A stretch of 27,482 nucleotides of DNA from a virus, in IMG/VR virus record IMGVR_UViG_3300032313_001843, positions 1-27,482 of that record, one strand, 5' to 3'. Of this stretch, positions 223-13,991 are shown in pieces. The notes under the pieces are model-generated. The model was not told the origin of the DNA. It saw nothing but the letters and a program-made list of their open reading frames with translations, and did not search any database. Made by a program: the position numbers and the translations under genes. Each line of letters begins with the position of its first letter. Within the stretch, counting starts at the first letter, position 1.

Positions 223-804
223 ATGAGCATAGAAAGAAAGTATAGAGTTAAAATATCTCAGGAAGATAAGTTAATAGATCTTGATATCGAGGCTAACAAC
301 AGTAATCACGCTGTAGCGCAAGCTGAAGATATCTGTCGTGCTTTAGACGCAACTTCTTTTACGTTGCACTATGGCTCTTACAAACAAACATTACTTTCTA
401 CCCTATTTAAAAAACTAGCTTTAAACTTATTTGATTACAAAGTTTGTACTCCTTGGGAAGGTCCTTTCAGTAATAATGTACCTTGTTTATATGCGTTTAA
501 ACAACGTTACTACGTAAGAAATTTAATTCTAAAATATTTAGATATACCACGAGAGGGAGCTCTTGCTCGTCCGAGCTGCAATTGCAAATCCTGCATAAAC
601 CCTTATCACTTCTCTTACAGAACCGGAAAAAACTCGAAATTAACTGGCGGAGATACCAATATGCTACTAGCATTCATAAGCCAAGGTTCTGGCGTAAGCC
701 AAGCAGCCAAGGCACTAAAGGTGCATCGCTCAACCATTTATCGGAAACTAAAGCATGAACATTTTTCTGTTGGGTCTGAAGATAACGGACACCGCGCAGG
801 ATAA
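223..804 (+). CDS. HNH-like zinc motif plus C-terminal helix-turn-helix protein, probable DNA-binding regulator
   Basis: 193 aa from an ATG. Residues 119-129 (CNCKSCINPYH) match the C-x-CxNPxH core of His-Me/HNH proteins of the HNH_3 type, in which a catalytic His normally precedes the first Cys; here that position is Pro-Ser, so nuclease activity is unlikely. Residues 153-176 (GVSQAAKALKVHRSTIYRKL) form a clear Fis/resolvase-like helix-turn-helix. The N-terminal 90 residues are not recognised. The C-terminal architecture matches the protein at 21971-22663. The 3' end overlaps the next gene by 50 bp, which suggests cotranscription. I infer a sequence-specific regulator made from an HNH scaffold; an active nuclease of unusual type is the alternative. 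Confidence 0.75.
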   Translation: MSIERKYRVKISQEDKLIDLDIEANNSNHAVAQAEDICRALDATSFTLHYGSYKQTLLSTLFKKLALNLFDYKVCTPWEGPFSNNVPCLYAFKQRYYVRNLILKYLDIPREGALARPSCNCKSCINPYHFSYRTGKNSKLTGGDTNMLLAFISQGSGVSQAAKALKVHRSTIYRKLKHEHFSVGSEDNGHRAG

Positions 805-1399
805 CGAAGGCGTTATTAACGTCTTGGCTGATGCTCTCCCGTCAAACGACAAAAGAGTATTAACAAAAGTCCAACTAATTCAAGACAAAAACCATTATGT
901 AGGAAAACTACTTCAACAACTAGTTAAGCATGATTCCGTCTTAGCTATTGGTCCCACGCGGGCCACAGTTGACGGTGTACTTCAAATGCAACCCATGCTG
1001 GTTATCTCAAAAGATAACTTTGATGATTTGTTGGCAATCAACTTGTTTATTGCTGCAGGCGGTCTAGGTCCAAAAGCTGACGAAGTAGAGCTTTCAGACA
1101 CCACCGTCACGAATCGCTCCCTTGCTTGGCAAGCGGATAACGCCGAGACATGTTGGTTTAAACTGACAGCGTGGGCTGAGTTATCTAAACAACTATCAGA
1201 TTTAGCGCCAGGCACACCAACAATTGCAGTTGGTAAAGTCTCTACTAGCGAAAAAGATGATAAAAATTACTTAAATTACACCTTGGACAAGATTCTTTAT
1301 CTACCCAAGTCATCGAAGTCCGCCCCCAAAAAAGCAGTGGATCCTGAAAAAGGTAAAATTGCTGCGGCGGCTATTGGTTCAATTGATTTCTCCCTTTAA
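755..1399 (+). CDS. Single-stranded DNA-binding protein-like (tandem OB-fold candidate)
   Basis: 214 aa. Residues 94-185 read like a bacterial SSB OB fold: INLFIAAGGLG at the start, VTNRSLAWQ as the next strands, the signature-like CWFKLTAWAELSKQL, then GTPTIAVGKVS and the closing strand LDKILYLP. The first ~90 residues (MNIFLLG..., LTKVQLI, SVLAIGP, MLVIS) look like a second, diverged OB fold. A Lys/Ala/Pro linker leads to the end GSIDFSL, which lacks the DDDIPF tip of cellular SSB but keeps an Asp-Phe. The role would be to coat ssDNA at the phage fork, beside the primase-helicase downstream. The start at 755 overlaps the previous gene by 50 bp, and no later start keeps the first fold. Confidence 0.7.
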   Translation: MNIFLLGLKITDTAQDNEGVINVLADALPSNDKRVLTKVQLIQDKNHYVGKLLQQLVKHDSVLAIGPTRATVDGVLQMQPMLVISKDNFDDLLAINLFIAAGGLGPKADEVELSDTTVTNRSLAWQADNAETCWFKLTAWAELSKQLSDLAPGTPTIAVGKVSTSEKDDKNYLNYTLDKILYLPKSSKSAPKKAVDPEKGKIAAAAIGSIDFSL

Positions 1400-1414: not shown

Positions 1415-2227
1415 ATGGTTTTTATTGCCGGTAAATTTTCCGAAGACGAAATTCTCGCCAACGTTCCTCCTCACACACTACGAATTGACCTTCAAGCTCG
1501 CCGTTGGAAATCCGATGTAGACTCTGACTCTGCAATTATCGACGCAAACGACAATGGGATTCCAATTGAATTTATCCTTTTAGGGTTTACACCTTACTTT
1601 GGAAATCTTGGAATGCGGAACCAAGAAGAATTCATGCGTATTGCTTTTATCGGTGTAACTCCGAAGCACCGACTTTTACCGCCACGCTGTGTAACAACCG
1701 CGATGATCTCAGGTAAGTCCAGTCAAAAGAATTTTATTGCTTACTTCCAAACTCTGTATAACAACAGGATTAATTGCGCTTCAGTGATTACATCTAGTAA
1801 GTTTGTAACCCGTTCTTTTAACGAACGGGATCCTGTAACGGGAGCAGACGGTGCCAAGATCAATTTTAATGCCCTGGAGTTTAAAGACCGTCCGGTTCAA
1901 AATGAGCTGGAAGAAAAATTGGTCGAGGACGTTATTGCGTGGCTCGATTCGACGGGAACTGAATCTGTAGTGCATTGTCTGAAATCGCACATCCCTGGTT
2001 CGGATTTGGTAGAGCTGCCTCTTGGCTCAGATCACTCTGAGATTAAAGCTCAGTTTGCTGCTGCAAGGCCACAAGGGTTGGAGGGTTCGACTCGTATGTT
2101 TCCTCCTGCAAAAGCTGCAACAGTAGAAGAGGCAATCGTAGTCACACCTGAACCTCCGCAACCTAAAAGAAAAAAGGCTGTTGAGCTTACGGAAGAACAG
2201 GCCAAAGCTCTAGGAGTTGACTTTTAG
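1415..2227 (+). CDS. Unknown 270-aa protein of the replication/recombination operon
   Basis: ATG start 16 bp after the SSB-like gene, with CAGG about 10 bases upstream. The N-terminal 170 residues are mixed alpha/beta (GIPIEFILLGFTPYFGN, EFMRIAFIGV, CVTTAMISGK), residues 185-205 are helical (ELEEKLVEDVIAWLDST), and a Pro/Lys-rich linker leads to a C-terminus LTEEQAKALGVDF. That acidic/hydrophobic tip recalls the partner-binding tails of SSB-like proteins. Position between an SSB-like gene and a terminator suggests a partner in replication or recombination, such as a ssDNA-binding or annealing protein, but I do not recognise the family. Confidence 0.7.
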   Translation: MVFIAGKFSEDEILANVPPHTLRIDLQARRWKSDVDSDSAIIDANDNGIPIEFILLGFTPYFGNLGMRNQEEFMRIAFIGVTPKHRLLPPRCVTTAMISGKSSQKNFIAYFQTLYNNRINCASVITSSKFVTRSFNERDPVTGADGAKINFNALEFKDRPVQNELEEKLVEDVIAWLDSTGTESVVHCLKSHIPGSDLVELPLGSDHSEIKAQFAAARPQGLEGSTRMFPPAKAATVEEAIVVTPEPPQPKRKKAVELTEEQAKALGVDF

Positions 2228-2295: not shown

Positions 2296-2649
2296 ATGTT
2301 TTGCCCGAACCCAGACTGCACCAGTGTTGTTACTAACGTCTTAACTGTCCGTCAGAAAAAAAACGGAAAAACAAGGCGTCGCGTCTGCCCCACGTGTGGC
2401 TTGAAATTTACGACAGAAGAGATTCTGTTAATAAAAGATGGTCACAAATTAATAAACCCTTATAAAAAGGAAAGCAGAACTAGACAAGGATCTTGTAACC
2501 CAGGGGCAATCTTAACCGATACAAATGTCAGAGATCTGAGAAGACTATATAGAGAAGGTAAGACTCAAAAAGAATTAAGCATCAAATATGGTATGAGCAA
2601 AACTCAAATATATAGAATTATTCATCGTTTGAGCTGGAAGAACATTTAG
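2296..2649 (+). CDS. NrdR-like zinc ribbon fused to a helix-turn-helix domain; putative regulator
   Basis: 117 aa from ATG. Cys3/Cys8 and Cys31/Cys34 form a zinc ribbon; the segment RRRVCPTCGLKFTTEE (27-42) matches the zinc-ribbon signature of the ribonucleotide-reductase repressor NrdR. The ATP-cone that follows in NrdR is absent; instead residues 88-112 (GKTQKELSIKYGMSKTQIYR) form a helix-turn-helix. The protein is therefore probably a DNA-binding regulator, not NrdR itself. It follows a terminator, so it likely has its own promoter, and its 3' end overlaps the convergent nblA-like gene by 32 bp. Confidence 0.75.
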   Translation: MFCPNPDCTSVVTNVLTVRQKKNGKTRRRVCPTCGLKFTTEEILLIKDGHKLINPYKKESRTRQGSCNPGAILTDTNVRDLRRLYREGKTQKELSIKYGMSKTQIYRIIHRLSWKNI

Positions 2650-2896
2650 TAGAGTTTCGTTTTAACGGATGGTCAACTTCACGTGGAGTTAAAAGTTCCG
2701 TTAACGGAGGAAGCATTACGCCAGAGCGAACACACCAAGAAGACAAAGCCGAGAATAAACGTTTATGTAACAAATGCTGTCTATGTACCATTTCAAAAAC
2801 CTCTATAAGTTGTTCTTTGTCTAGCTTCCTAGCGTCCCTGAGAACTCGCTGGTGTAAAAAATTCTGTTCTGTATCAAGCCACTCAAGATTTAACAT
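2618..2896 (-). CDS. nblA: NblA-like phycobilisome degradation protein (C-terminally extended)
   Basis: 92 aa from ATG with AGG 8 bases upstream. Residues 7-50 match the NblA pattern without gaps: L-x-x-EQ-x-F near the N-terminus, then KLDKEQLIEVFEMVHRQ and H-x-x-LF. In NblA the first helix and the E-x-L-x-x-x-F-x-x-V-x-RQ helix make the dimer that links phycobiliproteins to the Clp protease. The usual length is about 60 aa; this one carries some 30 extra polar residues ending in a Ser/Asn/Asp/Glu tail. It is antisense to all its neighbours and has its own promoter. In phage infection NblA would dismantle the host light-harvesting antenna. A non-NblA helical protein is the alternative. Confidence 0.62.
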   Translation of the reverse strand: MLNLEWLDTEQNFLHQRVLRDARKLDKEQLIEVFEMVHRQHLLHKRLFSALSSWCVRSGVMLPPLTELLTPREVDHPLKRNSTKCSSSSNDE

Positions 2897-2918
2897 TTAA
2901 TAAACCTGGAATATGACG

Positions 2919-2947
2919 ACTATAACCATTCTTCAGTAGACAGGCAA
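2919..2947 (-). promoter_or_regulatory. Sigma-70-type promoter of the nblA-like gene
   Basis: Reading the - strand, TTGCCT (2947-2942) is followed after exactly 17 bases by TATAGT (2924-2919). The -10 is five of six to consensus and the -35 four of six. The ATG at 2896 lies 22 bases further on. Confidence 0.5.
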
Positions 2948-2957
2948 CCGTCCTGTC
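2939..2957. promoter_or_regulatory. Operator-like inverted repeat over the nblA -35
   Basis: GACAGG (2939-2944), seven bases, CCTGTC (2952-2957): a perfect 6-bp inverted repeat. It overlaps the -35 of the nblA-like promoter and sits 30 bp before the divergent gene at 2987. No T-run follows on either strand, which argues against a terminator. A related palindrome lies at 3858-3874. Confidence 0.45.
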
Positions 2958-2986
2958 AGTACACTGTGACTCTCCACATGATCATC

Positions 2987-3529
2987 ATGACCGACTTTTA
3001 TGTAGTTCCAGATGGTGTGACCCACACTTTGATCAAACACACCTTCATCTCAGGGAACATCTTAGTTCCTTACGATCCGCAACACGTTTTAAGCACACAA
3101 CTTCAAAAACATAAATATACAGTCACAACAAATGAAGACCCGAACAACTTATTAGACCCTATCTGGTGGGTGTCCATGCGAGAGAAAAAATACGATTGGG
3201 TCGTATGCTCAACCATGGGTTTAAAAGACTACAGTGAATACATAATGGAATATGGAATGTCAATAGCGACTAATGGCATTGCTCTTTTAGATAGGTTATC
3301 TTTCTTAGAACCAGTGTTTAAACGAAGAACATTCCTTTTAAAGAATAAATTGTCGAACATGGTTGTTTTGTCGCCACGGCCAAAATTTCGAGCTGTAGGT
3401 TCGACTAAAGACTCTGTAACAGCTTGTTGGTTTGTCTTTCAAAAACCGGACAAGTGGATGGATGGCACGATGATCAGTTACGCAGTAAATTGGGAAAACA
3501 TCGGAGCCCTTCCGGAACTTCCAACATGA
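2987..3529 (+). CDS. Methyltransferase-fold protein lacking catalytic motifs
   Basis: 180 aa from the third possible start (GTG at 2966 and ATG at 2978 are alternatives). The order of segments follows phage-type N6-adenine methyltransferases: DFYVVP at the N-terminus (usually xxTP), VPYDPQH where motif I (EPCAGxG-like) belongs, YDWVVCSTMG at 69-78 where motif IV (DPPY/NPPY) belongs, then the typical tail RLSFLE (103-108), LSPRPKF (128-134) and CWFVFQK (147-153). The downstream half is well kept while SAM-binding and catalytic motifs are gone. I infer a catalytically dead DNA- or protein-binding derivative. It overlaps the next gene by an ATGA. Confidence 0.6.
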   Translation: MTDFYVVPDGVTHTLIKHTFISGNILVPYDPQHVLSTQLQKHKYTVTTNEDPNNLLDPIWWVSMREKKYDWVVCSTMGLKDYSEYIMEYGMSIATNGIALLDRLSFLEPVFKRRTFLLKNKLSNMVVLSPRPKFRAVGSTKDSVTACWFVFQKPDKWMDGTMISYAVNWENIGALPELPT

Positions 3530-3913: not shown

Positions 3914-3929
3914 GACACAAACTTGTGTC
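3914..3929 (+). promoter_or_regulatory. Hairpin enclosing the GTG start of the nuclease gene
   Basis: GACACAA (3914-3920), AC, TTGTGTC (3923-3929): a perfect 7-bp inverted repeat with a 2-bp spacer. The GTG start codon at 3925 lies in the right arm. As RNA the tight loop is unfavourable unless the inner pair opens, so it could equally be a DNA operator. No Shine-Dalgarno is visible upstream. Confidence 0.5.
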
Positions 3930-4695
3930 CCAAACTCGTTTAACAATTGATGGTTTACGTCATTACGTTTGTGATGGAGTACATAGACCACTACCTTCAG
4001 TAACTAGTGTCTTATCCGCTACACAAACGGAAGACACTCAACGAAAATTAGCTCACTGGAATGTATTAAATCCAGGCGTAGCCGATGCAGCAGCGGCGAG
4101 GGGTTCATGGGTACATGGTGCAGTTGAAAACTACATCCGAGGTCTAATTGTCAAACCGCCTCAAGACTTACTTCCTTTTTGGCAGGATCTTCCAGAAAAA
4201 CTAGATGAGCTTTTAGAAAATAGTAAAGTACTGTGGTCTGAAAAACCATACAACCAGCCACAGTGGTCAAAATACGTAGGGGACGATGGTATTGGCAGAA
4301 TTCATTATTACGACAATACTACAGGTCATGGTTATGCTGGTTGTCCCGACATAATTTATAAAGATCAAAACGGGGAATGTGTGCTTGCAGACTTTAAAAC
4401 TTCCGCAGGTCCTTATAGTTATAGGTTTCCAAAACCCAATATGGACTTGGACGAGAAAACTCGTAAAGCTTTAGTTAGTGGTGTTTTTAAATTAAAAAAA
4501 ACAAAGTTACAGCTAGCTGCATACTCTATAGCTGCAGAACATTGTCTAGGAGTTAAAATCGACAAAACTCGAATAATTGTGTCTACTCCTGTTCCCGAGT
4601 ATTCAGTTCAAATTTTTACTTTTGGTGCTAACGAATTAGATATAGACAAGAAACAGTGGATGGAAGTTTTAAAGAAATTTTACTCGAAAGTTTAA
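3925..4695 (+). CDS. PD-(D/E)XK nuclease, RecB/Cas4-like exonuclease
   Basis: 256 aa from GTG. The motifs of this superfamily appear in order: RGSWVHGAVENYI (His64, the early His motif), GCPD (Asp142, motif II), ADFKTS (Asp156-x-Lys158, motif III) and the following helix QLAAYS (Gln196, Tyr200). Phage members process DNA ends during recombination or degrade host DNA, using a divalent metal. All visible active-site positions are intact. The gene lies just before the primase-helicase, which fits a replication/recombination role. No iron-sulfur cysteine cluster is evident (few Cys), so it is closer to lambda-exonuclease/RecB-like phage enzymes than to classic Cas4. Confidence 0.78.
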   Translation: MSQTRLTIDGLRHYVCDGVHRPLPSVTSVLSATQTEDTQRKLAHWNVLNPGVADAAAARGSWVHGAVENYIRGLIVKPPQDLLPFWQDLPEKLDELLENSKVLWSEKPYNQPQWSKYVGDDGIGRIHYYDNTTGHGYAGCPDIIYKDQNGECVLADFKTSAGPYSYRFPKPNMDLDEKTRKALVSGVFKLKKTKLQLAAYSIAAEHCLGVKIDKTRIIVSTPVPEYSVQIFTFGANELDIDKKQWMEVLKKFYSKV

Positions 4696-4765: not shown

Positions 4766-7516
4766 ATGCAATTTGTCTGTTCGTTAAATTCTGAAGTTAA
4801 AAAATATGTAAACCCTAAAACAGGGAAAATAAGTGCAGGGGGTAACTTTAAATCATTCAATGAGAATTGGATTCCTGTTACCGAAAGCATTACTTTTATA
4901 TCAGAACAAGTAAAAGAAGGTGAAGGTCTTTGTGCGTGGCATTTAGTAGATGGCAAACGCATTAAGGATAAAACTGGATGTATTCAAGCAGGCTTGATTA
5001 TTATTGACATCGATAATCAATTAGACGGAAAAACAGAAGATGGTGAAAAAATACAAAAGCAAGAATTAACTCCTACTCAAGCACTCGAATTAGATCTTTG
5101 TAAAAACTATCTGTCCTCTGCTTATTACTCTCCTAGTTCCACGGCGGAATGGCCTCGATTTAGATTGGTCTTTGGGTTAGAAAAACCGATACTAGACCCA
5201 GATTTTTTTCAATGGTTTACAAGGCAAATCTCCCAACAAATTCCGGGCTCAGATCGTAGAGCGACATTAACGGTAAACCTTTTTTATGGCTCAAAACAGG
5301 GAGAAGATCTTATATGCGTTACAGATAAATTTATACCAGCGGTAAAAATTGACGAAGCTTATATTGCTTACACACGAATTCCTAAAGAAGAATCTACAGA
5401 ATCAGATCCGTTAGAAGCATTAAAAATCAAATACGCCGACGAGGGAGCGGAGATCAGCAAACTGGTCAGTAACGCGGTTAAGGAAATACTCGAAGGCAAT
5501 CAAGTCGAAGACAGGTCGTTTGCCATGGCTATGGTTCTCAAAGAAATCATAGGCTGGTGCAACTGGTTACGCGAATCACAAGTCCCAACACGAGAAAAAC
5601 CACTTGACATAGCACACCGTGCGTTCTATGCTCTGTATGACTACGCACCTGAGCTTGATGGCAAATTTAACCGAATCTTAAACAGCATCACTGATGCTTC
5701 TTCTTTGAAGCCAGCTATTTCGCTTGCTGTAGAGAATGGAGAATTATCTCCATGGAAAAAGTTAAAGTCTCACTATAAAGATCTCTTTGAGACCTTATGC
5801 CCAGATCAAATCAAATCAGACATCAAGAGTAGAAAAGCAAAACCAGTAAATTCAATACTGGCCTTTGACATTTTTTCGGAAGATTCTTTCCAAACAACAT
5901 CAACATCAACACCTTTACCTTCACCTGATTCAATGGTTACCACACCAGCAACACCAGCTCAGCTAATAAACTTGCAGCAAAACAACAGGCAGTTTTCGGA
6001 GAACGACATTGCCGATGTTATTGTTAACAACTATGGCGATCGCTTTTTATTCGACTCGACCTTAGACGAGTTCTTTACTTACGACGACGACCAAGGTATT
6101 TGGTATCTCCAAGACGATCAGCATATTAAGCGTAGGATTGTAAAAACCCTAGACACTTTTGTTGTAGCTGGTGTTCTACCGAAGTACAACTCAGCTACCG
6201 TGGCTTCCGTTTATCAAATACTAAAAGCTAAAATGTTACGTTCGATCGATGGCGGACGTACCTCTATATGGAACAAAGGGCGCCGTTTTATACCATTTAA
6301 GAATGGTATCTTAGATCCGGACACACAACAATTTAACGCTGGTAACCATAAGGATTTGTTTTTACGAACAAAGCTAGGTTACGACTACGACAAAAAAGCT
6401 ACGTGCCCTAAGTTTATTACTTGGCTAGAACATGCTGTCGGAACAGAGAAGGTAGTTATTATCCAAGCATTTCTACGTGCGTTGGTAACAGGTTATGTCA
6501 CAGGAGAAAAGTTTCTTCACTTAATTGGTCCGGGCGGTACAGGTAAGTCCACGCTGCAACAAATTCTGATCGCCCTTGCTGGGTTTGGCGGGACACATAC
6601 AAGCGATTTGGAAACAATTGAAACCAATCGTTTCGAGACTCACAACCTTATCGGCAAACGGTTATTGCTTCTGACAGACGAGGCTTCTTTCTCAAAACGT
6701 TTAGACACGTTAAAAAAACTTACTTCCTCCTCTGATACCTTAAGGGCGGAGCGAAAGTATGGGACACAGACGATTAACTTTAAGCCGGAGTTGATGGTTT
6801 GTATTGCTTCTAACGAACACATATCGTCTTCCGATATTAGTAGCGGATTGGAGCGTCGTCGTTTAACGATTGTCATGGACAAAGTTGTCCCTCCTTCTCA
6901 ACGTAAAAATCTTATAAATGTGTATGAAGATCGTATAGAAGGTGAGCTAGCTCCAGAACTATCAGGAATTGTGAGCTGGGCTTTATCAATGACGCGAGAT
7001 CAAATGCGCGATGTTTTGAGCAATCCTGTCAAGCATTGCCCCACGCTGAACGCTACTGATATCGAAGCTCTGGTATTTAATAATCCAATTTGCGCGTGGC
7101 TTTCGGACTGTTGTTTGTATGCGCCTAATTCGACTACAAGTATTGGAGGAGGTGCTTTCCGACCTTCTACGGATGAAAGCGAACGTGGTTTGTATGTTAA
7201 AAATGCATACGTTGAGCTGTACGCAAGCTACGTTAACTTCTGTAAATCAAATGGATACAAACATGCGGCTAAACAAAGATTTGTAGATCGCTTAAAAGAA
7301 ACAGCACAGAATGTCCTAAAGATTGAGAAGGTAGACCCTCGATTAATTGGAGGCAAAGCAGTCGTTACTGGTTTACAATTGAAGCCGTATGATGTCACTA
7401 CAGATCGTGCGTCATACGGAGACACTCGTCTCCCGTCGCCGATCGAATGGGCATCAAACCCAACATATGACCTTTGGAAAATTGCTTTTGAAACTCATGA
7501 CACTAAAACAACCTAG
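4766..7516 (+). CDS. Primase-helicase: AEP-type primase domain plus P4/D5-family SF3 helicase
   Basis: 916 aa from ATG, with GGAG 7 bases upstream. The N-terminal region has an archaeo-eukaryotic primase look: LIIIDIDN (Asp81, Asp83, catalytic DxD) and WPRFRLVFGLEKP (129-141). A Ser/Thr/Pro-rich linker at about 385-415 separates it from a D5_N-like region. The helicase has Walker A GPGGTGKS (588-595), Walker B LLLLTDE (Asp638, Glu639) and the SF3/P4-type GLERRR (694-699) as arginine finger region. It would unwind and prime phage DNA replication. No DNA polymerase is seen in the window. The C-terminus (750-916) is probably a winged-helix-like D5 tail. The end overlaps the next start by 20 bp. 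Confidence 0.88.
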   Translation: MQFVCSLNSEVKKYVNPKTGKISAGGNFKSFNENWIPVTESITFISEQVKEGEGLCAWHLVDGKRIKDKTGCIQAGLIIIDIDNQLDGKTEDGEKIQKQELTPTQALELDLCKNYLSSAYYSPSSTAEWPRFRLVFGLEKPILDPDFFQWFTRQISQQIPGSDRRATLTVNLFYGSKQGEDLICVTDKFIPAVKIDEAYIAYTRIPKEESTESDPLEALKIKYADEGAEISKLVSNAVKEILEGNQVEDRSFAMAMVLKEIIGWCNWLRESQVPTREKPLDIAHRAFYALYDYAPELDGKFNRILNSITDASSLKPAISLAVENGELSPWKKLKSHYKDLFETLCPDQIKSDIKSRKAKPVNSILAFDIFSEDSFQTTSTSTPLPSPDSMVTTPATPAQLINLQQNNRQFSENDIADVIVNNYGDRFLFDSTLDEFFTYDDDQGIWYLQDDQHIKRRIVKTLDTFVVAGVLPKYNSATVASVYQILKAKMLRSIDGGRTSIWNKGRRFIPFKNGILDPDTQQFNAGNHKDLFLRTKLGYDYDKKATCPKFITWLEHAVGTEKVVIIQAFLRALVTGYVTGEKFLHLIGPGGTGKSTLQQILIALAGFGGTHTSDLETIETNRFETHNLIGKRLLLLTDEASFSKRLDTLKKLTSSSDTLRAERKYGTQTINFKPELMVCIASNEHISSSDISSGLERRRLTIVMDKVVPPSQRKNLINVYEDRIEGELAPELSGIVSWALSMTRDQMRDVLSNPVKHCPTLNATDIEALVFNNPICAWLSDCCLYAPNSTTSIGGGAFRPSTDESERGLYVKNAYVELYASYVNFCKSNGYKHAAKQRFVDRLKETAQNVLKIEKVDPRLIGGKAVVTGLQLKPYDVTTDRASYGDTRLPSPIEWASNPTYDLWKIAFETHDTKTT
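6036..6043. repeat. HIP1 palindrome GCGATCGC
   Basis: One perfect copy of the highly iterated palindrome of many cyanobacterial genomes, inside the primase-helicase gene. A single copy is weak support for a cyanobacterial host. Confidence 0.6.
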
Positions 7517-8129: not shown

Positions 8130-8160
8130 GGCGGGCCTAATCAAGCCCGCCTTCGCTTTA
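8130..8160 (+). terminator. Terminator hairpin between convergent genes
   Basis: GGCGGGC (8130-8136) pairs perfectly with GCCCGCC (8145-8151) around an 8-base loop, followed by TTCGCTTTAT. The U-run is poor, but the GC-rich stem lies between the ends of the + strand replication operon and the - strand thyX gene, so it may stop transcription from both sides. Confidence 0.65.
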
Positions 8161-8853
8161 TCTATAGTTAATATTTAACCACCCACGCAGGCTGTGATCA
8201 TCACTAGCGGCTGATATTACTGCTTCTGTTGTAATAGGAAGTATTGTAGACAAACTAATCCCAATACCCGAGGCAATTTTTCGGTGTTCTTTTTGAGTTT
8301 CAACAGACGCTCGAAGCCCAACATAATGTATAAAAGATCTAATAGTCCCAGTAATGTATATTTTTGTAGGAGAACACATCATTAATACGTTTCTGGCACA
8401 TTCTTTAGCTACTCCCTCATTAATCATATCTTTATATAATTTTTTACTTTCATAAAAATGATCGAATATACGTTGTTTAAACTTTGCAACCGTCTCAATA
8501 TCCATATTTTCAGTAGAGTTTTGTCTATTTGTTGGATCTTGTTTCCGTAAATCAAAATCCCAACAAGTCAACTCTGATTCTTCTAAAAGATCCAACGGAT
8601 CACAATACCTTTGACTTAGCTCTTGAAAATTAAAAGATTTGTGCCTGATAATCTGAGCTGATATAGCTCTTGAAGTTATAATTTCAAAACTTGCCGATGC
8701 TTGCTCAAAAATACTCCAATGGCTATGCCGAATACAATACTTTAAAAGTTTTGTAAATTCAGTTTTGTCAGGATTTTTTGCGCTAACTCTGGCATGACGA
8801 GCTATAACTCGTTCAGCATCAGGTGTTACCCAGTCAAGTTGGACTTTATGCAC
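8158..8853 (-). CDS. thyX: Flavin-dependent thymidylate synthase
   Basis: 231 aa, GTG start. ThyX makes dTMP from dUMP with FAD, NADPH and methylene-tetrahydrofolate, feeding phage DNA synthesis. The signature RHRx7S is present as RHKSFNFQELS (70-80), with Lys72 in place of the last Arg, followed by QRY. Further family segments are HSHWSIFEQASASFEI (43-58), ECARNVLMMCSPTK (151-164) and LRASVETQKEHRKIA (180-194). Length is normal. It ends at the terminator shared with the convergent operon. ThyX is common in cyanophages. I see no Shine-Dalgarno before the GTG. Confidence 0.93.
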   Translation of the reverse strand: MHKVQLDWVTPDAERVIARHARVSAKNPDKTEFTKLLKYCIRHSHWSIFEQASASFEIITSRAISAQIIRHKSFNFQELSQRYCDPLDLLEESELTCWDFDLRKQDPTNRQNSTENMDIETVAKFKQRIFDHFYESKKLYKDMINEGVAKECARNVLMMCSPTKIYITGTIRSFIHYVGLRASVETQKEHRKIASGIGISLSTILPITTEAVISAASDDHSLRGWLNINYR

Positions 8854-10350: not shown

Positions 10351-11589
10351 TTACTTAATGGCTTCTATATACCAGCCAGTCCCTGGACCTTCCACGAGCC
10401 AACGAGGTCCTAGATTTTTTTTAGAGTACAGCAAATGGGATCCGTTAGAGTTTTGATATCCGCCATTAAGGAGGTCCATTTCCCCATAGGGGTCATTGAC
10501 TACATATGCCGTGTTATCTTCGTTCCGTCCAATAATAGTAAGCCAATGTCCTCCGCCACTTGGTTTACTTACAGGGCCATGATGAAGAACCCCGATAGGA
10601 ATAGGAAATCCTTTTGCTAGTTGCGAATCAATATCGCTCCAGCCACCATCTTGTCTGAACTCTACGTTCAATCCATACTGCTCTAAAGCAGTCACTTGAG
10701 CGGAAGGTTCTGTAGTATCCCCATACTTATAAACAGTAACCATGTACTCATCGTCGCTCGTTATGCTACTTGGTTTCACGTATTTAAGAAGCATTGCACA
10801 TGCACTTGAAAAGCAAGAACGCAAAGGATCTTTTTTATTATCTCTTTGGGAATAATAAGGTACGTCTAAGACAAGTTTTTTAGGATGTTTAAATTGAGGT
10901 TCAATAGAAGTTACTTTAGGATCATTTATAATTTTCCAATGGGTTGGATAAAACCACCAGACTTGATTAGGTTGCGCTTCTAATGTAATTTTGTAGTCTA
11001 CCTCACCAGGAACAATTGAAATGTTGGTCCAAGCATGAGCACTTCCTTTAGGCACAAACAGCTTCTGCTCGGGCGTCAGATCAGAAGTTTGACCTGGTTT
11101 ACGCTTTAACCACGTGTCACGTTGGGCAAGGATTGTATGAGCCAAAACATCATTCTTCGCACCTTTTAAGAATAGCTCACTCTCAGCTTTTCGCCTGCTA
11201 ACCAACCCAGGTAGTGTTTGATTCCCCGCTTTAACCCACTTAGAAAACTCAGCGGCAACAACCTTTTTATCTGTTTTTTCGTTAATTAAGTTTAAAAGAG
11301 TAGATGATCTAAAAGCTGAAACTCCGACGTTATAAGTAAAACTTACAAGGGCATCAAATTGGTTCTGATTTACAGGTACTTTTAGAGATTCTGTGACAGC
11401 TTTTTCGAAAATAGCGAGGTCAAAACGTAAATACTCCTCCGCTTTAACTTGCGATATGGTCTGACCTTCTTTAACCCCGGTGGTGGTACCAAACCCAATA
11501 GTCCAGACGCCCACGGAATCCTGATACGCAGTAAGTCTGCAGCCTTCGAACTGTTTAAGAAGTTCAATACCAGCTGCAGAGATTTTCAT
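10351..11589 (-). CDS. Two-domain endolysin: GH24 lysozyme plus C39-like cysteine peptidase
   Basis: 412 aa. Residues 1-143 are a T4-lysozyme-type GH24 muramidase with the exact E-8x-D-5x-T triad, Glu15, Asp24 and Thr30 (KQFEG, YQDSVGVWTIGFG). Residues 236-412 read as a Peptidase_C39-like fold: Gln248 (oxyanion), Cys259 in RSCFSSACAML, His348 in GGGHWLTI and Asp366 in VVNDPYG. The middle (165-230) is beta-rich and may be a binding module. It would cut both glycan and peptide parts of peptidoglycan. There is no signal peptide, so a holin is needed; two membrane genes lie just upstream on the other strand. Start is in a TAATG overlap with the gene before it. Confidence 0.88.
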   Translation of the reverse strand: MKISAAGIELLKQFEGCRLTAYQDSVGVWTIGFGTTTGVKEGQTISQVKAEEYLRFDLAIFEKAVTESLKVPVNQNQFDALVSFTYNVGVSAFRSSTLLNLINEKTDKKVVAAEFSKWVKAGNQTLPGLVSRRKAESELFLKGAKNDVLAHTILAQRDTWLKRKPGQTSDLTPEQKLFVPKGSAHAWTNISIVPGEVDYKITLEAQPNQVWWFYPTHWKIINDPKVTSIEPQFKHPKKLVLDVPYYSQRDNKKDPLRSCFSSACAMLLKYVKPSSITSDDEYMVTVYKYGDTTEPSAQVTALEQYGLNVEFRQDGGWSDIDSQLAKGFPIPIGVLHHGPVSKPSGGGHWLTIIGRNEDNTAYVVNDPYGEMDLLNGGYQNSNGSHLLYSKKNLGPRWLVEGPGTGWYIEAIK

Positions 11590-13136: not shown

Positions 13137-13991
13137 ATGTCTACAACACTTCAACTTGCTTGGGTTCAGTTCAAGGCCGAACGTGCTGTCACGCTTTGTC
13201 CTACGAGTTTAACTGCGGATTATAAACAGGTAGAAAAATGGATAAACCGATGTCCAATCACAAATTTGGAAGAGGGTCGTCAAGTTATGACTTGGGTACT
13301 AGGACAAAAACCGGTTAAGTCAAGCCGTAGAGTCGCTATGTATGTAAAAAGTCTTTATAAATGGGCCGCTAGTGAAGATATTTGTTTGTTGCTAAAAAAT
13401 CCAATAATGACATTTAAAATGCCAAAACCTCCTCAAGAGGATATTGATATCATTGTTATACCTCAGAAAGAAACTTCTATAGTTTTAAATTCTCTCTGTT
13501 CCCGTTTTACAAGAAACGGAGCTAACTGGTCTCATTACGCAGAATTTATGCTTCAAACAGCAATGCGTACAGGAGAAGTACGAGCTTTAAAATGGGACGA
13601 TATAAAAGATAATAAAATATTAGTACACTCCAACTATACTTTAACCCACGGGCACAAAGATTCGACAAAAACAAACCGTAAACGTTGGGTCCCTTTAAAT
13701 TCAAAAGCTCAAGAAATCTTACAACAAACTAAAAAAGTTGAGGATTATATATTTCCTTGGAATAGACTTGCTTTCCAAAGTTATTTTTATGATCGAATGT
13801 GTGAGCTCTATGCAACTAACAAAATAGAGAATAGATACAGACCATACGATTTACGTCATACAGCAATTAGCCGTTGGATTGAAGCACAAATTCCTGTTGC
13901 TCAAGTAGCAAACTGGGCAGGAAATAGCTCAGAAGTTATATGGCAGCACTATGTGAACGTCACCAAAGAGTATGAAATGCCTGTTCTATAA
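13137..13991 (+). CDS. int: Tyrosine recombinase / phage integrase
   Basis: 284 aa from ATG. An N-terminal SAM-like core-binding region (about 1-95) is followed by the catalytic domain: Arg144 (TAMRTGEVRALKWDD), a beta-hairpin Lys (KTNRKRWVPL, about 178), the box II RPYDLRHTAISRW with Arg240 and Tyr237 replacing the usual His of HxxR, Asn263 (AGNSS) replacing the His/Trp, and nucleophile Tyr272 (QHYVNV). Arg144, Lys, Arg240 and Tyr272 are all present, so strand exchange is plausible. It suggests the phage can integrate. No attachment core can be recognised beside the gene. The stop nearly abuts the convergent gene. Confidence 0.88.
   Translation: MSTTLQLAWVQFKAERAVTLCPTSLTADYKQVEKWINRCPITNLEEGRQVMTWVLGQKPVKSSRRVAMYVKSLYKWAASEDICLLLKNPIMTFKMPKPPQEDIDIIVIPQKETSIVLNSLCSRFTRNGANWSHYAEFMLQTAMRTGEVRALKWDDIKDNKILVHSNYTLTHGHKDSTKTNRKRWVPLNSKAQEILQQTKKVEDYIFPWNRLAFQSYFYDRMCELYATNKIENRYRPYDLRHTAISRWIEAQIPVAQVANWAGNSSEVIWQHYVNVTKEYEMPVL

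Follow-up and report, generated by a model that had tools for sequence, protein, structure and literature searches.

Does a small reading frame that runs against the surrounding genes of a phage replication block encode a relative of NblA, and what would such a protein do in the infected cell? The frame lies in a viral DNA of 27,482 nt (IMG/VR record IMGVR_UViG_3300032313_001843), and this whole stretch is called the window in the following. A sequence-only reading had taken the 92-aa product for an NblA-like protein with a promoter and an operator of its own. The features on which the analysis is based, together with the grounds for each assignment, are:

755-1399, plus strand: SSB-like protein of the replication block (weak Pfam SSB match, conserved synteny)
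1415-2227, plus strand: conserved upstream neighbour, function not assigned (in 82 of 82 loci)
2296-2649, plus strand: convergent neighbour, NrdR-like zinc ribbon with HTH (Pfam PF22811, HTH_23)
2618-2896, minus strand: nblA-like gene of family I, 92 aa (82 homologous loci, dN/dS, antisense slot)
2621-2734, minus strand: C-terminal extension, residues 55-92 (alignment A2, pLDDT)
2735-2881, minus strand: predicted NblA-homologous helix-loop-helix core, residues 6-54 (Pfam and PDB matches, hhalign, AF2)
2919-2924, minus strand: -10-like hexamer TATAGT (TAnnnT retained in this column of the alignment)
2939-2957, no strand: palindrome GACAGG-N7-CCTGTC (exact in L002-L016 only)
2942-2947, minus strand: -35-like hexamer TTGCCT, spacer of 17 nt (conserved in several clades)
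2987-3529, plus strand: divergent neighbour (partial PHROG match to a DNA methyltransferase family)
3925-4695, plus strand: PD-(D/E)XK exonuclease (36% identical to S-EIV1)
4766-7516, plus strand: D5-type primase/helicase (closest isolate match Synechococcus phage S-EIV1)

The minus-strand frame is present at 2618-2896 as described, with an ATG start and 92 codons, and it is a genuine gene under purifying selection. Two scans of IMG/VR yielded 82 loci with full-length relatives, here called family I, at identities down to about 50%. Start and length are conserved across these relatives, and synonymous changes far exceed amino-acid changes: dN/dS is between 0.02 and 0.24 in most pairs, the outlier being a single pair at 0.39 for which dS is only 0.05. 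One might still suspect a spurious frame on the non-coding strand, as it runs against the direction of the block and its 3' end reaches into the convergent gene. However, a dN/dS well below 1, the conserved start and length, the 82 loci and a slot of its own of about 280 nt, with just 32 nt shared with the convergent gene, leave this explanation practically no chance. Such an artefact is ruled out by dN/dS, conservation at the codon level and synteny.

Also the antisense position within the replication/recombination block, to which the sequence-only reading had pointed, is a stable property: in 77 out of 77 loci containing both neighbours (1415-2227 and 2966-3529) the nblA-like gene stands between them on the opposite strand. 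The divergent neighbour was listed as an ORF from a GTG at 2966; its conserved start is the ATG at 2987. The slot on the convergent side holds the zinc-ribbon/HTH gene in 19 of 82 loci; elsewhere it is empty or, in several other clades, codes for an unrelated protein about 128 aa long. The zinc-ribbon/HTH gene at 2296-2649 overlaps the 3' end of the nblA-like gene by 32 nt, and an unrelated 'NKSKRASNDW' protein, filling this slot in other clades, by 58 nt; the overlap therefore recurs with different genes.

Upstream of the gene the proposed minus-strand promoter TTGCCT-17-TATAGT was found, and we accept it as likely because its -10 column is conserved. Of 48 distinct, though related, upstream sequences, 40 have TAnnnT in one and the same alignment column, against a background of 1.4 per 130 nt. 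The -35 hexamer is retained as TTGCCT, TTGTCT or TTGTTT in the window, L018 and L026-L037 clades. A promoter scan of the region by consensus only gave 2 sites versus 2.4 expected, which is not above chance. Given the relatedness of the upstream sequences, the conserved column is support for a promoter, not proof. The suggested operator fared worse. GACAGG-N7-CCTGTC does exist at 2939-2957, but it is intact only in the near-identical relatives L002-L016; L017, L018 and all other clades have a disrupted left arm, and this free arm decays already in relatives of 70–95% identity while the arm within the -35 region stays. We therefore reject the palindrome as an operator for lack of conservation; it is probably incidental.

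Is the product an NblA? In a Pfam search the sole match of the 92-aa protein was NblA (PF04485), without gaps from protein residues 10-49 to profile positions 5-44, at 14.6 bits and an E of 0.047. This score lies below the curated Pfam cut-off of 25 bits. No member of family I reaches this value (family maximum 23.5), and for the protein and its family there was no meaningful match in PHROGs and none in NCBIfam. A missed Pfam cut-off is not disqualifying, because the accepted phage NblA of KBS-P-1A misses it as well (24.2 bits) and S-TIM5 gives no match, even though it is counted, along with related podoviruses, among the phages that carry nblA (PMC9602691).

Among PDB sequences the best match was 3cs5, the NblA of S. 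elongatus, gapless over 45 residues; it also came out on top with the family profile A1 (18 rows), at an E of 0.0076, better than with the single sequence. Aligning the family with cyanobacterial NblA by hhalign gave a score of 32.0 and a probability of 83% over 47 gapless columns, compared with maxima of 22.0 in 300 column shuffles and 22.8 in 300 hydropathy-preserving shuffles, and with 13.0 for the reversed profile. Upon addition of five accepted phage NblAs the probability was 91%, and across the runs 47–49 columns aligned without gaps.

When 18,302 ORFs from phage loci were searched with an HMM built from cyanobacterial NblAs only (E<=1), it retrieved family I, three other NblA-like ORFs and nothing else. 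After phage NblAs had been added, the HMM matched all 82 members of family I (E<=10) and, within the window, the frame at 2618-2896 with an E of 2.6e-5, the next-best ORF being at 0.32. In the reverse direction the family profile was run against 244 cyanobacterial genomes; its top match, G028:C1:4091363-4091506, is a true nblA that PF04485 finds independently (E 1.9e-17). In the loci of Ma-LMM01, S-TIP37, S-SRP01 and KBS-P-1A the NblA is likewise the ORF that the profile ranks highest, if at low scores; that of PaV-LD is not singled out. Family I itself was not found in the cyanobacterial genomes. Best matches are reciprocal along the whole core, and the sequence comparisons point to family I as a highly divergent phage nblA. 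The homology claimed at the outset holds; it is remote but specific in both search directions.

At the level of residues, the motifs L7-x-x-E10-Q11-x-F13 and E28-x-L30-x3-F34-x2-V37-x-R39-Q40-x3-H44-x3-F48 are present without a gap and had been quoted correctly to the letter. In the alignment used for residue conservation (A2), the invariant positions are E10, Q11, F13, Q40, L47 and F48; R39 and H44 vary within family I, so that some of the quoted match is specific to the clade of the window. The invariant E10, Q11 and F13 preserve the N-terminal ClpC-binding motif LSxEQxF at the sequence level. Among the C-terminal residues that bind phycobiliproteins, the aromatic F48 and L51 are kept and the rest differs; these residues vary among accepted NblAs too. 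An AF2 model predicts one helix from residue 9 to 23, a turn and a second helix from 27 to 58, with a pLDDT of 82–92 for the core and an overall pTM of only 0.46. The predicted monomer is hence a helix-loop-helix, which matches the architecture of NblA (PMC7966870). A Foldseek search of this small two-helix monomer against PDB and BFVD, run without a true NblA as positive control, recovered no NblA, and VIA-align gave no useful match for the model.

Behind the core, residues 55-69 of the extension are conserved in family I (C55, V60, L62, P63, L68, L69), and its end is disordered and variable, with a pLDDT below 50 for residues 82-92. Apart from F48 and L51, the region that binds phycobiliproteins in NblA, the C-terminal one, differs between family I and host NblA. 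The extension had been called unusual for an NblA. It is indeed conserved and unlike host NblA, but other phage NblA-like proteins of the same lineage carry tails as well.

With cyanobacterial NblA (PF04485; S. elongatus PCC 7942, 3cs5) family I shares a gapless match of 45–49 residues starting at L-x-x-EQ-x-F, the helix-loop-helix and, in helix 2, the Q and an aromatic residue. It differs by an identity of about 25%, by a score below the Pfam cut-off and by a length of 72–96 aa instead of about 60 aa, with a conserved C-terminal extension absent from host NblA. Among phages, the best profile matches of the family are the NblAs of S-TIP37, KBS-P-1A and S-SRP01 (12.9–13.6 bits for S-SRP01 and KBS-P-1A), which are T7-like cyanophages of marine, estuarine and freshwater origin. 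Their nblA adjoins the exonuclease in the replication module, and family I likewise stands in a replication block; however, the T7-like genes are co-oriented with the module and reach 24–28 Pfam bits, whereas family I is antisense, solitary, lower scoring and likely equipped with a promoter of its own. The NblAs of Microcystis phage Ma-LMM01 (52 bits) and Planktothrix phage PaV-LD (45 bits) have the same core domain and, unlike family I, are clear Pfam members with host-like sequences. We noted that the nblA ORF of S-TIP37 (L145; MH540083.1 12521-12661) is without annotation in its record and that the homologs in KBS-P-1A (AGH57737.1) and S-SRP01 (QPD06442.1) are annotated as hypothetical.

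The cyanophage context is borne out by the remaining genes. Synechococcus phage S-EIV1, whose host is a freshwater Synechococcus, has matches to at least eight proteins of the window, with identities of 36% for the exonuclease, 29% for the primase, 41% for ThyX and 34–41% for the lysin, among others. In the long relatives G245 and G246 the terminase is 53% and a virion-block protein 67–69% identical to S-EIV1. These shared genes for replication, lysis and the virion place the phage in the S-EIV1 lineage of cyanophages. An NblA-like protein is also found in S-EIV1 (AHV82245.1; L134:33902-34222; KJ410740.1 73902-74222); it is annotated as hypothetical and scores 16.3 bits against Pfam and 23.1 bits against the cyanobacterial NblA HMM. 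It has an NblA core and a C-terminal tail in common with family I, from the same phage lineage, but it is a different gene, located outside the antisense slot, with 106 aa and a long acidic tail. Five S-EIV1-like contigs (G245, G246, G396, G251 and G249; loci L156, L157, L178, L179 and L180) carry two NblA-like genes, one of family I and a second of about 83 aa whose core contains LTLEDEFVLTRIR. In the window, itself just a fragment of 27 kb, no such second gene turned up.

NblA is an adaptor of ClpC with about 60 residues, the C-terminal part of which binds phycobiliproteins (PMC7966870; PMC4103541), while its conserved N-terminal motif binds ClpC (PMC4103541). During infection phage nblA genes are expressed, and producing them in host cells leads to the loss of phycobilisomes (PMC9602691); the accepted ones act in antenna breakdown (PMC9602691; PMC5780444). 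By analogy, the most likely function of the family I product would be that of a Clp-protease adaptor triggering phycobilisome breakdown. The reading as a divergent phage nblA of an S-EIV1-related lineage, coding for a ClpC adaptor that degrades the antenna and transcribed singly in antisense from its own promoter, explains the locus best; we give it a probability of about 0.72. We infer the following course, including its timing and the use of the promoter. The product would fold as the helix-loop-helix of NblA and, like NblA, dimerise; through its conserved N-terminal EQ-x-F it would attach to ClpC, the Clp chaperone of the host, and hand phycobilisome proteins over to the protease. Degradation of the antenna during infection would then free amino acids and lower light capture. 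The gene would be transcribed alone, from its conserved sigma-70-type promoter and against the replication genes.

An unrelated small helical hairpin, for instance a phage modulator of transcription or DNA metabolism, could resemble NblA by convergence. All scores lie under curated cut-offs, the gene has replication genes around it, and hairpins of two helices are widespread. Yet the specificity is reciprocal in both search directions, the alignment covers the NblA domain from end to end without a gap and shuffled controls score far lower, and the isolate of this cyanophage lineage likewise encodes an NblA-like protein, which makes convergence quite improbable. It is also conceivable, if doubtful, that an NblA-derived adaptor kept its ClpC-binding N-terminal half and uses its C-terminal half to supply the protease with host proteins that are not phycobiliproteins. 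The invariant E10, Q11 and F13 next to a C-terminal part unlike host NblA, in which C55, V60, L62, P63 and L68 are conserved, would fit such a change, and the second NblA-like gene of some related phages would allow a division of labour. But the C-terminal sequences of the accepted NblAs of S-TIP37, S-SRP01 and KBS-P-1A also diverge from host NblA; divergence alone is therefore no proof of a new target. Given the conserved C-terminal segment and the second gene, altered targets or a heterodimer are nevertheless conceivable. More speculatively, the abundant S-EIV1-like lineage might possess a paired NblA system, with two adaptors per genome acting as a heterodimer or on split targets and with the C-terminal segment of the antisense one redirecting the Clp protease beyond the phycobilisome; we consider this rather unlikely.

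Phage NblA as such is already known, and the divergent nblA described here extends it to the S-EIV1 lineage, as a line of NblA that appears to have been unrecognised so far. The literature covered attributes no nblA to S-EIV1 or its group, which does not establish priority; Table 2 of PMC5332604 gives hli and ptoX only, and no nblA, for group G238, and the papers covered that mention both S-EIV1 and nblA do not link them. This lineage accounts for about 3% of marine cyanophage read abundance (PMC5332604). According to a study that we know through its citation in PMC12892361 (Nadel et al. 2025), phage NblA reportedly cuts light capture by oceanic cyanobacteria. As family I lies below the detection limit of standard annotation, surveys based on Pfam would miss it. 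Since both the isolate S-EIV1 and its Synechococcus host exist, the function of NblA-like proteins in this lineage is directly testable.

A comparison of the window DNA with 386 cyanobacterial genomes gave, apart from a thyX-like similarity, nothing but weak short matches, and neither a prophage nor a convincing spacer. The thyX gene (8158-8853, minus strand) has 67–70% DNA similarity to several small cyanobacterial genomes (1.7–1.9 Mb), which hints that genes were exchanged with picocyanobacteria. On nine related contigs searched for psbA none was found. The window further contains a tyrosine integrase (13137-13991, plus strand), which hints at a temperate option for this S-EIV1-like phage; no tRNA or attachment site was found in the window. 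Finally, the lysin (10351-11589, minus strand) joins a phage lysozyme domain and a C39-like peptidase domain in one protein, and the S-EIV1 matches to its two halves stand in separate places.
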